Assembly: GCA_024653575.1 (NCBI GenBank)
Contig: JANLIJ010000003.1
Span: 1-32,322, forward strand
DNA from: Candidatus Kaiserbacteria bacterium
GTDB taxonomy: Bacteria; Patescibacteriota; Minisyncoccia; Phycocordibacterales; UBA918
DNA: 32,322 nt
Direction: 5' to 3'
Under the pieces are notes generated by a model, which made no database searches, was not told where the DNA came from, and saw only the letters and a program-made list of their open reading frames with translations. This document shows, in pieces, positions 3,166 through 17,796 of this stretch; position 1 is the first letter of the stretch; every line of letters starts with the position of its first letter. Position numbers and translations under genes: made by a program.

Positions 3166-3933
3166 TTATTCAATAAATTGAAGGCGCGTAACTAGAGCGC
3201 CACTCTCGGTCATTTGTCCGTAAACGTGTACTTTTTTTGCCTCGACAAACTGGTCAGGAGCACATATTGCTGTGCTTGAGTCGACGGCTATACAGGAACT
3301 CTCTGATGAGAAGAGAAGTGGTACAACATGGCCGAGTTCGCCAGCCTCTTCAAAGATGAGGTGCCAATATTCAGAGTTATAAGGTGGTTGGATATTCTTG
3401 AGGAGGTATCCTTCTTTTTCAAAACTAAATTCTCGAGGAATATCGAACTCTCCTGAGGAACAGAGGATATCTCCAATGAACCAACCATCGTTGAGTCGCT
3501 TGAGTGTGAATACTGATTGAGCAGTCAACTCTTTCTCTTTTGCCATGACGAGCACGCGCACCTCACCCTCTTGTTCTGAGACAATTCTTCCGGTAACTCG
3601 CGCTGGTGTGGTGGTCTGGCACAGTACAGGGTCAATTTCCGTGTCTCCTTGTCCTTGGCTACTCACGATTCGAGTACGAAGTTCCTCACTCAGTATTTTA
3701 GCGGTTGCGAGCCCTGCGGTGTATGGATCTGTGCTCGTCGATTTCACGGCCTCGAGCCATGGGTTATAAAAGTCCAATACGATGTCGACTGGGTCATTGG
3801 CCGAGACCTCCTGGGTGTAGGTGATCGTGTTCGGTTGTTTTGTATCTGCTGAATATGAATAAAATAGCCAAACTATAAGCGCAATTGCGCCGAGAGCTAA
3901 AAAGCCAATTGCAATAATTTTTTTATGTATCAT
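3166..3933 (-). CDS. Membrane-anchored hypothetical protein
   Basis: 255 aa ORF with N-terminal TM segment (IIAIGFLALGAIALIVWLFYSYS) and extracytoplasmic remainder. Confidence 0.75.
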   Translation of the reverse strand: MIHKKIIAIGFLALGAIALIVWLFYSYSADTKQPNTITYTQEVSANDPVDIVLDFYNPWLEAVKSTSTDPYTAGLATAKILSEELRTRIVSSQGQGDTEIDPVLCQTTTPARVTGRIVSEQEGEVRVLVMAKEKELTAQSVFTLKRLNDGWFIGDILCSSGEFDIPREFSFEKEGYLLKNIQPPYNSEYWHLIFEEAGELGHVVPLLFSSESSCIAVDSSTAICAPDQFVEAKKVHVYGQMTESGALVTRLQFIE

Positions 3934-4007: not shown

Positions 4008-4505
4008 CTAATACTGACCTGATTCAATAAGGTCTTTTAAGAATTTTCTATCAAATTCTTGATGCTCCCCACCTAAATGCTGTTTGTATTCCAAAAGTAC
4101 TTTTGGATGCATCAGTGTGACTGGTACGCCCTCTATCTCTTTTCTCACATCAGGCCACTTTTGATAAATTTCTTTGTTTTTAAGCCACACACTTCCATCT
4201 GAACTTTTCATCAGAAGAGTATCAATGTCTGTCAAATCAATATCCTGACCGTTGTAAGCAAGGGACAGCGTAATGCAATCCCACTTTTCATCTAGGTAGT
4301 GTTTTGGTTCTACCACAACATATCCTTCTACCAATGGCATAAGCCTAGAAAAATTTTCGCCTGAAAAAGAAATGTCTATATCATTAATTTTTCTACCGGA
4401 ACCGTAAAGAAATGTTGCCATACCGCCACCAACCCGATACGGCATATTATTTTCATTCAGGATTCCAGCAATCCATTTAAGTGCATTGAGGGTATTATCG
4501 TTCAT
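4008..4505 (-). CDS. Nucleotidyltransferase-superfamily-like protein
   Basis: 165 aa; YRVGGGMATFLYGSGRKINDIDISF resembles the GG...DxD nucleotidyltransferase motif. Confidence 0.65.
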   Translation of the reverse strand: MNDNTLNALKWIAGILNENNMPYRVGGGMATFLYGSGRKINDIDISFSGENFSRLMPLVEGYVVVEPKHYLDEKWDCITLSLAYNGQDIDLTDIDTLLMKSSDGSVWLKNKEIYQKWPDVRKEIEGVPVTLMHPKVLLEYKQHLGGEHQEFDRKFLKDLIESGQY

Positions 4506-12045: not shown

Positions 12046-12077
12046 TTGGCCGTTGATTATGCTATAGTTTGCACTCT

Positions 12078-13319
12078 ATGTCAATGAAGCACGAATACGA
12101 CGTTATTGTCATCGGCGGTGGTCCCGCGGGTATGATGGCAGCAGGACGCGCTAGTGAGCGTGGTCTTCGTGTGCTTCTTCTCGAAAAAAATCCTGAACTC
12201 GGGAAGAAACTTTCTATTACGGGTGGTGGCCGATGTAACATTACTAATGCTGAGCTCGATATCCATACATTCCTCAAACACTATAAAGAATCCGCGCAAT
12301 TTTTGTATTCTCCTTTTTCACAGTTTGGGGTGAGTGATACTTTTGATTTCTTTACATCGAACGGACTTCCTTTGGTAACGCAGGAGCGGAAACGTGCATT
12401 TCCAAAGACCGAAAAAGCAACGGATGTGACCCATGTCATGGTGGAGTATGTACGGCGTGCTGGAGTCACTGTTTGCATCAATACACCAGTACTTCGTCTC
12501 AAGATAGAAAACGGCTCTGTGAGCGGTGTGGTCACAAATAATGGCATATATACCGCACGAGCATACATTCTCGCAAGTGGTGGAAAGTCTCATCCTGAAA
12601 CGGGCTCAACAGGGGAAGGTATCGGTTGGCTCAATGAAATAGGGCATGCGGTGCACTCACCGAATCCCGATATTGTACCGATTGTTGTAAAAGACGAGTG
12701 GGTTCGACGTCTCTCGGGAACCACGCTCACGGGTGCGCAACTTACCTGCAAAAATAAATTCGAAAAAATCAAAGTGACGGGAAATATTCTCTGTACGCAC
12801 TTTGGGATTTCTGGCCCAACAGTTTTAAATAGTGCAAGAAAGATAAAAGAAATGCTCTCGCATGGAAAGGTGGATGCAGAGATAGACCTTTTCCCGGCAG
12901 ACGATATTGGCGCACTGCGTAAGCGCATGCAAACACATTTTGAACTACACGCGAACAAGACACTCAAGAATGCACTCGCTGAACTCGTTTCTGTACACAT
13001 TGCGGAGGCAATCCTTGAAGCCATTCCTCACGAGTCTCATGAAAAAAAGACACACAGCATTACCCGTGATGATAGACATGCGCTCGTCAATAGGATGAAG
13101 TGCCTTCCTATAACGATTGTTGGTACGAAGGGCTTCGAATGGGCTGTTGTCTCCGATGGTGGTGTTGATTTGAGTGAAATTGACACAAGGACCATGCAAT
13201 CAAAGTTGCACCCCAACATATACCTTGTTGGTGACGTGCTCAACGTTCATCGCCAATCTGGCGGTTTTTCCCTTCAGCTTTGCTGGACTACTGGTTGGGT
13301 AGCCGGAAATAGTGTGTGA
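12078..13319 (+). CDS. NAD(P)/FAD-dependent oxidoreductase, HI0933/YhiN family
   Basis: VIVIGGGPAGMMAAGRASERG dinucleotide-binding motif, GKKLSITGGGRCNITN, YLVGDVLNVHRQSGGFSLQLCWTTGWVAG. Confidence 0.92.
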   Translation: MSMKHEYDVIVIGGGPAGMMAAGRASERGLRVLLLEKNPELGKKLSITGGGRCNITNAELDIHTFLKHYKESAQFLYSPFSQFGVSDTFDFFTSNGLPLVTQERKRAFPKTEKATDVTHVMVEYVRRAGVTVCINTPVLRLKIENGSVSGVVTNNGIYTARAYILASGGKSHPETGSTGEGIGWLNEIGHAVHSPNPDIVPIVVKDEWVRRLSGTTLTGAQLTCKNKFEKIKVTGNILCTHFGISGPTVLNSARKIKEMLSHGKVDAEIDLFPADDIGALRKRMQTHFELHANKTLKNALAELVSVHIAEAILEAIPHESHEKKTHSITRDDRHALVNRMKCLPITIVGTKGFEWAVVSDGGVDLSEIDTRTMQSKLHPNIYLVGDVLNVHRQSGGFSLQLCWTTGWVAGNSV

Positions 13320-15207: not shown

Positions 15208-15651
15208 ATGCACAAAAATATGTCAGAACAAGTCGAGGTACTTGGTAAGGTTTCGTCGAAGGAAAACAAATTGCCTCTTTATTCTTCTCGTCCACAGGCA
15301 GGGTTTCCATCTCCAGGTGACGATCACATTGAACGAATTCTCGATATCAATGATTTGGTAGTGAAAAATCCAGCCTCTACATTTTTTGTGCGTGTAGAAG
15401 GTGACTCTATGATTGGTATCGGTATCTTTTCAAACGATGTACTCGTTGTGGATAGGTCAATAACTCCAAAAGACGGTGTCATCGTGGTCGCTGCAGTCTA
15501 TGGTGAGATGGTTGTAAAAAGGCTTGTCGAGCGCGGAAATACTCATGTACTCGTCTCAGAAAATGAAAATTACAAACCAATTACGGTCTCAGAAAATGAC
15601 GACTGTTTCATCTGGGGCGTTGTCGTAGGAAGCGTCCGCCAATTTTCATAA
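15208..15651 (+). CDS. umuD: UmuD-like S24 peptidase / translesion polymerase accessory protein
   Basis: AGFPSPGDDHIERILDINDLVVKNPASTFFVRVEGDSMI..GVIVVAAVYGEMVVKRL: Ala-Gly cleavage site, catalytic Ser (GDSM) and Lys (VVKRL); translation may start at 15220. Confidence 0.9.
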   Translation: MHKNMSEQVEVLGKVSSKENKLPLYSSRPQAGFPSPGDDHIERILDINDLVVKNPASTFFVRVEGDSMIGIGIFSNDVLVVDRSITPKDGVIVVAAVYGEMVVKRLVERGNTHVLVSENENYKPITVSENDDCFIWGVVVGSVRQFS

Positions 15652-15656
15652 CAACT

Positions 15657-15681
15657 TATGGTCGACATCGTAAGTCGACCA
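15657..15681 (-). repeat. 25-bp palindromic REP-like repeat, copy 1 (inverted orientation)
   Basis: ATGGTCGACATCGTAAGTCGACCAT, reverse complement of the other four copies. Confidence 0.95.
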
Positions 15682-15719
15682 TTTGTTTGATATCAAATAT
15701 GCTTACTCGTTAGAGTCTT

Positions 15720-15744
15720 ATGGTCGACTTACGATGTCGACCAT
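15720..15744 (+). repeat. 25-bp palindromic REP-like repeat, copy 2
   Basis: ATGGTCGACTTACGATGTCGACCAT, 9-bp arms, 7-nt loop. Confidence 0.95.
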
Positions 15745-15753
15745 AAATTGGGT

Positions 15754-16422
15754 TTATTCGAGTGTAAGGTGCTGTATGTCGTCAATAGAAATATCATGAA
15801 GGTATTTTTCTACCTGTGCTTTATAGTTTTGAGAAAAAATCTCCTGAAAAAAGGTTGTTGTAAGGATCGACGGAAAATTTTTAATACCAATGTAATCTTT
15901 GTAGCTACTCCACTTGTATTCCAAAAGATGATTGAGCGCAGTATTTTGATCGGCTATTTTTAATTCTCGCCAGTCCTTGTTACTGTTAGATAAATCAAGT
16001 GGGTTGAAATGAACGTAATTGAGAATATGAAGTAGGTGTTGGTCTGTACAAATATGTACTTTTTTAGTTCTACCTTGAAACAGTGTACCTACACGGCTGT
16101 ATCGTTTATTGAAGTACTTCGCATATCCAACATTCAGCTTGCGAAGAAAATTAGACATTCCGTTTTCAATGCGCTCGCTGAGAATAAGATGGTAGTGATT
16201 TCCCATTAAGCACCAGCCGTGTATATCTACCAGTTCCTTGCCGGGTGCCTCAGATGGTCGACTTACGATGTCGACCATATTACTTGCGTGTCTTCCCACG
16301 TGTAATGCTGGTGCTAATGTATTGAACTCATACATATCATGTACAAAACGAGCATAGTCCTGTGAATCAAGGAAGATATTTCTTTTATCGACTCCTCGAT
16401 TGAGAACATGGTAGAACTCCAT
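15754..16422 (-). CDS. REP-associated tyrosine transposase (RAYT, Y1_Tnp/IS200-like HUH)
   Basis: MEFYHVLNRGVDKRNIFLDSQDYARFVHDM..WCLMGNHYHLILSE (HUH) and candidate catalytic Tyr in VGYAKYFNKRYSRVGTLFQGRTKK. Confidence 0.93.
   Translation of the reverse strand: MEFYHVLNRGVDKRNIFLDSQDYARFVHDMYEFNTLAPALHVGRHASNMVDIVSRPSEAPGKELVDIHGWCLMGNHYHLILSERIENGMSNFLRKLNVGYAKYFNKRYSRVGTLFQGRTKKVHICTDQHLLHILNYVHFNPLDLSNSNKDWRELKIADQNTALNHLLEYKWSSYKDYIGIKNFPSILTTTFFQEIFSQNYKAQVEKYLHDISIDDIQHLTLE
16254..16278 (+). repeat. 25-bp palindromic REP-like repeat, copy 3, inside the transposase ORF (encodes MVDIVSRP)
   Basis: ATGGTCGACTTACGATGTCGACCAT identical to copies 2, 4 and 5. Confidence 0.95.
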
Positions 16423-16443: not shown

Positions 16444-16468
16444 ATGGTCGACTTACGATGTCGACCAT
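16444..16468 (+). repeat. 25-bp palindromic REP-like repeat, copy 4, upstream of the transposase start
   Basis: Identical 25-mer. Confidence 0.95.
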
Positions 16469-16524: not shown

Positions 16525-17796
16525 ATGATAGGGCTTATGGATTGCAACAATTTCTTTGTCTCGTGTGAACGCCTCTTTCGTCCTGATCTTCGAAATAGGC
16601 CTGTTGCAGTTCTCTCATCAAATGACGGCTGTATTGTGGCCCGTAGTCAGGAGGTGAAGGATTTGGGTATCTCCATGGGAGTGCCGTATTTTCAGGTACA
16701 AGATATTTGTAAGAAAAACGATATTGTCTTATTTTCTTCAAATTTTCAGTTGTATAGAGATATTTCAAAGCGTGTCATGTGCGCGCTCAGCGATGAATTT
16801 GATCATTGTGAAGTCTATTCGGTTGACGAGGCATTCTTTGATCTTAAGGAGGATTCTGTCTTAAAATTAGAGGAAGTACGAAGGAGAATCATACAAAAGA
16901 CCGGTATTCCTGTCTCTATTGGTATTGCTCCAACAAAAACGCTTGCAAAAGTAGCAAACAATATTGCAAAGAAAAATGGTCGACTTACGATGTCGACCAT
17001 GGGGGTGGATGGTGAGGGGGTGTGTGTGTTGGAGATGGATGAATGGCGAACGGTGGCAAAAAACATGTCCTGTGGGAGTATTTGGGGGATTGGGAGGCAA
17101 ACATCGGCCGTACTCACTCAAAATGGTATCAATACTATTTCAGAGTTTTTGGCGCTTGATAGGTCGTATGTACGGCGTTTGCTTGGTGTTGTGGGTGAAC
17201 GAGTCCATATGGAGCTTCAGGGTGTTTCGGTATACGCACTCGGTGAATTGTCTGATATTGAGCAAGAGAGCTATACAAGTACGCGTTCATTTCATTCTAC
17301 AATTCAAGACAAGGGAATTCTCATGAGTGCACTCGCACACCACGTGTCTGAGGTGGCGGAGAAACTGCGTAATGACGGTTGTGTTGGATCGAGATTAACT
17401 ATTATTGCAAAGGGAAGTCGATTTGGTGATTTTTCACATCGAGATGGCACTATGAGCACACCGCTTATCATTCCGACGAATGATACCTTTGTACTCATGA
17501 AGGAAGTGGGGCACCTTCTTGACACTCTCTACGATGCGACAGTGCCCTATAAAAAAGCAGGTGTTGTCATAAGTGGTATTGAACCACAGGCAATGGCAGA
17601 GAACTCACTCTTTACAGAAGACACAAGAACACAATCATTAAGTTTTTTAGAGGATGAAATCAACAAGAAATTCGGCAGAGGGGTACTGCGCCACGGGGCG
17701 ACACTCGGTGAAAAAAAATGGCAAGAGCGTAAAGAACGCAAGTCGCCAAACTATACGACAAGCTGGCAAGAAATGGCCGTTGTTAAGGCCAAATAA
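16525..17796 (+). CDS. umuC: UmuC-like Y-family DNA polymerase (translesion)
   Basis: MIGLMDCNNFFVSCERLFRPDLRNRPVAVLSSNDGCIVARSQEVKDLGI, VYSVDEAFFDL, GIAPTKTLAKVANNIAKKN, SIWGIGRQ. Confidence 0.95.
   Translation: MIGLMDCNNFFVSCERLFRPDLRNRPVAVLSSNDGCIVARSQEVKDLGISMGVPYFQVQDICKKNDIVLFSSNFQLYRDISKRVMCALSDEFDHCEVYSVDEAFFDLKEDSVLKLEEVRRRIIQKTGIPVSIGIAPTKTLAKVANNIAKKNGRLTMSTMGVDGEGVCVLEMDEWRTVAKNMSCGSIWGIGRQTSAVLTQNGINTISEFLALDRSYVRRLLGVVGERVHMELQGVSVYALGELSDIEQESYTSTRSFHSTIQDKGILMSALAHHVSEVAEKLRNDGCVGSRLTIIAKGSRFGDFSHRDGTMSTPLIIPTNDTFVLMKEVGHLLDTLYDATVPYKKAGVVISGIEPQAMAENSLFTEDTRTQSLSFLEDEINKKFGRGVLRHGATLGEKKWQERKERKSPNYTTSWQEMAVVKAK
16976..17000 (+). repeat. 25-bp palindromic REP-like repeat, copy 5, inside umuC (encodes GRLTMSTM in frame)
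   Basis: Identical 25-mer; GGT codon at 16978 is in the umuC frame. Confidence 0.95.

Follow-up and report, generated by a model that had tools for sequence, protein, structure and literature searches.

An in-frame palindrome within a RAYT-like gene matches the gene's own flanking repeats and recurs at fixed sites in related genes

RAYTs (REP-associated tyrosine transposases; REP, repetitive extragenic palindrome) and their palindromes form single-copy, apparently domesticated pairs whose persistence calls for explanation, as illustrated by a locus in the 32,322-nt stretch analyzed here (the window), the beginning of contig JANLIJ010000003.1 of a Candidatus Kaiserbacteria genome. The window encodes a RAYT-like Y1 HUH transposase on the reverse strand (15757-16422), and its open reading frame (ORF; 15754-16422) contains a 25-nt palindrome, ATGGTCGACTTACGATGTCGACCAT, at 16254-16278 (plus strand). 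A first-pass annotation had proposed a putative target repeat of the transposase within the transposase gene itself. The 25-mer lies exactly there and in frame, encoding MVDIVSRP of the RAYT just ahead of the HUH motif, and matching copies flank the gene. An internal hairpin that keeps a fixed place and changes along with the flanking family offers a direct handle on how RAYTs and palindromes persist together.

A palindrome family around and within the RAYT gene

Five exact copies of the 25-mer are present in the window, where shuffled sequences are expected to hold none, and 12 occur in the 1.03-Mb genome, in which neither copies with one to three mismatches nor matches to the reversed control were detected. 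Apart from the internal copy, one lies before the RAYT start codon (16444-16468, plus strand), its centre at -34 nt in a position that is stereotyped in relatives, and one just past the stop codon (15720-15744, plus strand). A second downstream palindrome (15658-15682, minus strand) is inverted relative to the copy at 15720, and pairing between the two would give a single long hairpin (-55.8 kcal/mol, z about -11) resembling the doublets of bacterial interspersed mosaic elements. The fifth copy is found in frame within umuC (16976-17000, plus strand). The 25-mer itself is predicted to form a hairpin whose 9-bp stem closes a 7-nt loop (-13.1 kcal/mol, z = -4.2). Read on the RAYT coding strand, the internal copy is ATG GTC GAC ATC GTA AGT CGA CCA T, corresponding to M49-P56 and preceding the HUH motif by 19-26 residues; if the window peptide is recoded synonymously, only some 0.3% of the versions have a stem of equal length.

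The 222-residue protein scores above the Pfam cut-off for Y1_Tnp and carries the HUH motif NHYH (N75-H78), an FQ pair at 115-116 (LFQG), YVHFNP (Y136 to P141), in which Y136 is by motif the catalytic-type tyrosine, and SS at 172-173 (WSS). Its AlphaFold model has a mean predicted local distance difference test score (pLDDT) of 90, and the closest fold match in the PDB is 4ER8, in which the E. coli RAYT is in complex with a REP hairpin; a search of PDB sequences with the RAYT profile gave nothing at 1e-3. By predicted fold, together with the HUH and Y---NP motifs, the protein can be placed among the RAYT/TnpAREP proteins (class 2 TnpAY1), and, as in that group, cognate palindromes flank the gene and further copies are dispersed in the genome. 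With the NCBIfam model REP_Tyr_transpos it scored 37.1 bits, under the 80-bit equivalog cut-off. The repeats do not belong to the GTAG-tagged REPs: the tetranucleotide GT[AG]G was found at the hairpin foot in two of 356 copy ends, against a background of 544 in 10587 12-mers, and a search for another conserved foot beside the 25-mer found none.

Recurrence of the internal copy and conservation of the hairpin

A congener, G002, has the gene order of the window and a RAYT that is 65-67% identical. Its palindrome family, ATGGCCGACTTACGATGTCGGCCAT, differs at one stem pair, where both partners have changed and C-G replaces T-A. This double change is seen in the flanking copies and in the copy inside the RAYT gene, which aligns with that of the window, is read in the same frame and encodes MADIVSRP. 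Orthologous copies of the palindrome also lie upstream of an Asp/Asn-type tRNA-synthetase gene in both genomes (L073 5371-5395 in the window genome, L067 3586-3610 in G002), between a T-box-like motif, GGGTGGCACCGCGG, and the following inverted repeat, and each bears the stem variant of its own genome. The double change in this non-coding leader copy means that the family shifts as a whole and not the gene copy alone. The leader (aspS) gave no match to the Rfam T-box model and is called T-box-like here solely because it has the GGGTGGCACCGCGG motif and is followed by the synthetase gene.

To a wider extent, internal copies were observed in a survey of 135 distinct RAYT genes, for which both 80 GTDB-contig loci and genomes of the order served as sources. 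In 57 of the 135 genes an internal palindrome has 9 nt or more (mostly 15-33 nt) in common with one in the gene's own 500-bp flanks, compared with 0-5 genes when the flanks were permuted (20 times), a result that speaks against chance sharing of palindromes. In a second analysis, with palindrome families defined from the flanks alone, a family copy was found inside 44 of 95 RAYT genes and 12 of 445 neighbouring ORFs. Some 40-45% of related RAYT genes share the trait, and the occurrence of the same architecture in dozens of independent assemblies speaks against an assembly artefact. Furthermore, the internal copies are concentrated at two places: 39 of 50 at 22-29% of gene length, before the HUH motif (site 1, the place of the window copy), and nine at 66-71%, past the catalytic-type tyrosine (site 2), the remaining two lying at 0.81 and 0.93 of the gene. 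Both sites are occupied in some genes (L050, L104, L152 and others); the L050 gene (G053:C32) carries two identical in-frame copies of ATTTGAGAGGTCCGACCTCTCAAAT, one per site. The reading phase is likewise restricted, with 34 of 52 site-1 copies in phase 0 and 15 more sharing a second phase, and nine of 11 site-2 copies in one phase. Outside the gene, the centre of the upstream copy clusters near -34 and the downstream copy lies at about +9 to +29. The spacing between upstream and internal copies (161-284 nt) is too broad to argue for DNA looping between them.

The first-pass annotation had suggested aligning homologs ahead of the HUH motif and checking whether those carrying the insert come from genomes with the same 25-mer. 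The insert does recur, while its sequence follows each relative's own flanks and is not the same 25-mer. The mean identity of an internal copy to its own upstream copy is 0.87, close to that between upstream and downstream copies (0.90), and 0.49 to the internal copies of other loci. The encoded peptides differ accordingly between relatives (MVDIVSRPS, QSLDIECPK, SEVGLPI, YRDFVNPD and others), the reverse of the outcome that had been named as refuting the proposal, a shared peptide over DNA that no longer forms the palindrome. Among nine members of the window clade, 96.7% of stem cells are paired, eight of ten pairs show two-sided changes and covariation scores 0.833, compared with 0.171 for shuffled data (0 of 500 reaching it), values that are inflated because the palindrome finder selects paired stems, a requirement that does not account for the variety of pair types. 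Across 34 phase-0 copies, G-C is invariant at pair ±6, T-A occupies ±2 almost always and A-T is the usual pair at ±5, whereas most pair types occur at ±7 to ±10. G-T pairs are nearly absent, which we do not read as a sign of DNA pairing since the finder counted Watson-Crick pairs only. Moreover, the asymmetric loop occurs within the window clade in either orientation (TTCGTAA or TTACGAA) at the same place and in the same phase, suggesting that internal copies are replaced by other family copies rather than drifting slowly. As judged from these comparisons, what is kept is the DNA hairpin and not the encoded peptide. A chance self-insertion peculiar to the window gene is unlikely, given that place and phase recur in many lineages and that the in-frame copy of G002 carries the compensatory stem change.

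Why the internal hairpin persists

The first-pass annotation had offered three roles for the repeat, a mark of the gene as substrate, regulation through a hairpin in the mRNA, or a tolerated self-insertion, and the sequences do not single one out. We favour, with a probability of roughly 45%, an explanation in which the internal hairpin is kept for self-recognition that limits RAYT expression or activity, the RAYT acting on the palindromes and copies being exchanged among them. The locus is a REPtron-like unit: its RAYT gene, present as a single copy, has cognate palindromes some 34 nt upstream of the start, just after the stop and, as a live member of the repeat family, inside the gene. This internal copy is held identical to the flanking and dispersed ones, probably by RAYT nicking and rejoining of single-stranded family hairpins, and such rejoining may swap one copy for another, at times in opposite orientation. 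Over deep divergence the hairpin has stayed at about 25% of the gene length and in a fixed phase. The RAYT would recognize this hairpin within the gene that encodes it, either as single-stranded DNA or, perhaps, in the mRNA, and this self-recognition would limit the protein's own expression or activity.

About equally likely is a tolerated insertion without function, kept uniform by family-wide exchange. Palindromes would land mostly beside the RAYT gene, two surface loops would accept about eight extra residues, and the copies would persist because in-frame removal is difficult. This is the published reading both for subclass 2.4 of the tnpAREP genes, where the insertions were judged peripheral or tolerated (PMC6006769), and for intragenic REPs generally (PMC3733652). 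It agrees with the crowding of copies near RAYT genes, where non-ORF DNA within 400 bp holds 6.1/kb, and with in-frame copies in other genes, namely umuC in the window and an HI0933-like gene in G002. However, simple tolerance leaves a nine-fold excess to be explained, since RAYT genes hold 0.84 copies/kb and ORF DNA at matched distance, within 400 bp, 0.096/kb (0.02-0.03/kb farther away). Only two narrow places are occupied, though other loops and the termini vary too, and the phase is conserved over deep divergence.

Several observations weigh against self-recognition, in addition to the finder's bias towards paired stems. The MVDIVSRP region is variable and of low confidence in the AlphaFold model (pLDDT 55-62), and the low confidence favours tolerated insertion. 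The two main phases at site 1 indicate that this site arose more than once or shifted. About half of the RAYTs with a flanking family have no internal copy, which is thus not required. On a FastTree tree built without the insert columns, in which many forks are weak, the trait is clustered but patchy (29 changes compared with 43 in shuffles): it is present in 10 of 11 rows of the window clade and wholly absent from a sister clade of eight. Finally, as tracking of the family extends to the non-coding leader copy, tracking alone does not prove selection within the gene; tolerated insertion explains it equally well, and the patchiness better.

Improbable, by comparison, is a role in mobility, in which the RAYT would use the internal hairpin as an alternative end so that partial units are mobilized or the gene is opened and self-inactivated. 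Whole units do move, and by sequence an internal palindrome could stand in for a flanking one; yet the dispersed copies of the window genome, where the RAYT is single-copy per palindrome family, revealed no RAYT fragments cut short at the internal copy. Movement of whole units is suggested by the neighbouring genes. In the window genome and in G002 the RAYT unit separates, on the opposite strand, a umuD-like peptidase S24 gene (15208-15651, plus strand) from umuC (16525-17796, plus strand), a Y-family DNA polymerase gene, whereas umuD directly precedes umuC in the relatives L205 and L207, which lack an intervening RAYT; the unit thus appears to have been inserted between the two. Very improbable is a role for the peptide itself, of which the palindrome would be a side effect: the phase-0 peptides are loosely alike (acidic-aliphatic, then often P, as in VDIVSRP, LDIGCPT and SEVGPRT), but they otherwise differ, the two other phases give unrelated peptides, the 15-33 nt matching the flanks cover both arms with the outer pairs included, and most stems lie out of reach of synonymous recoding (0 of 300 in 41 of 63 cases).

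Relation to known systems and further copies

REPs inside RAYT genes are already known. Quentin et al. (2018; PMC6006769) described in-frame REPs within tnpAREP genes as a unique feature of subclass 2.4 (RAYT group 4), in which, as here, the repeats also flank the gene. The present case differs in motifs, foot and sites: subclass 2.4 has GT[AG]G-tagged repeats, NH[IFV]H, WQ and YIxNNP, where the window has no GTAG, NHYH, FQ and YVHFNP, and its insertions generally lie between HuH and Y, whereas here they precede HuH or follow Y. By its motifs, though not by profile, the window protein most closely resembles TnpAY1 subclass 2.1 (group 1), with NH[YF]H, FQ, Y[IV]HxNP, an SS tail and a length near 222-238 residues, YVHFNP being one residue off the Y[IV]HLNP of that subclass. 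Subclass 2.1 has been reported to lack REPs near the gene (PMC6006769), in contrast to the cognate palindromes that flank and invade the gene here. Classical REPtrons (E. coli rayT, Stenotrophomonas RAYTs; PMC2817692, PMC8266576) share the flanking cognate palindromes, dispersed copies and inverted doublets but have the GTAG foot and palindromes that only flank the gene; around K-12 rayT all REP motif matches fell outside the ORF. Rickettsia palindromic elements and the intragenic REPs described by Di Nocera et al. (2013; PMC3733652) likewise insert in frame into coding genes, with repair genes prominent (compare umuC here), but are scattered over unrelated genes, whereas here the transposase gene itself is the recurrent host, with fixed sites. 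In the papers that were openly searchable, we found no report of the fixed site ahead of the HUH motif or of covariation of internal copies.

Tentatively, then, a widespread RAYT lineage once thought to be free of REPs may keep a cognate hairpin at a fixed site within the coding sequence as a self-recognition element, the specificity of the RAYT and the internal site changing together. The transposase might in that case adjust its level by reading the gene or mRNA that encodes it, a suggestion that we put forward with similar reserve. Independently of this, the natural protein-hairpin pairs, comprising dozens of stems with a common GA..T.A..TC core, are ready data for finding the RAYT residues that read the stem.

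Cognate palindromes are dispersed in other genomes as well, with nine copies in G002, 19 in G048 and 10 in G038, beside the 12 of the window genome (G000). A second RAYT gene of the window genome (L072, G000:C23) is flanked by another palindrome, AAATTAGGACATCGGATGTCCTAATTT (around 3606-3642 and 4300-4336), and has no internal copy. The copy within umuC sits in a 12-codon insertion that 19 homologs lack. In G002, the gene for an HI0933-like flavoprotein contains an in-frame palindrome copy (L065 2875-2899) that its ortholog in the window (12069-13319) does not have, and the two align without a gap at the copy, as though sequence had been replaced there and not lengthened.
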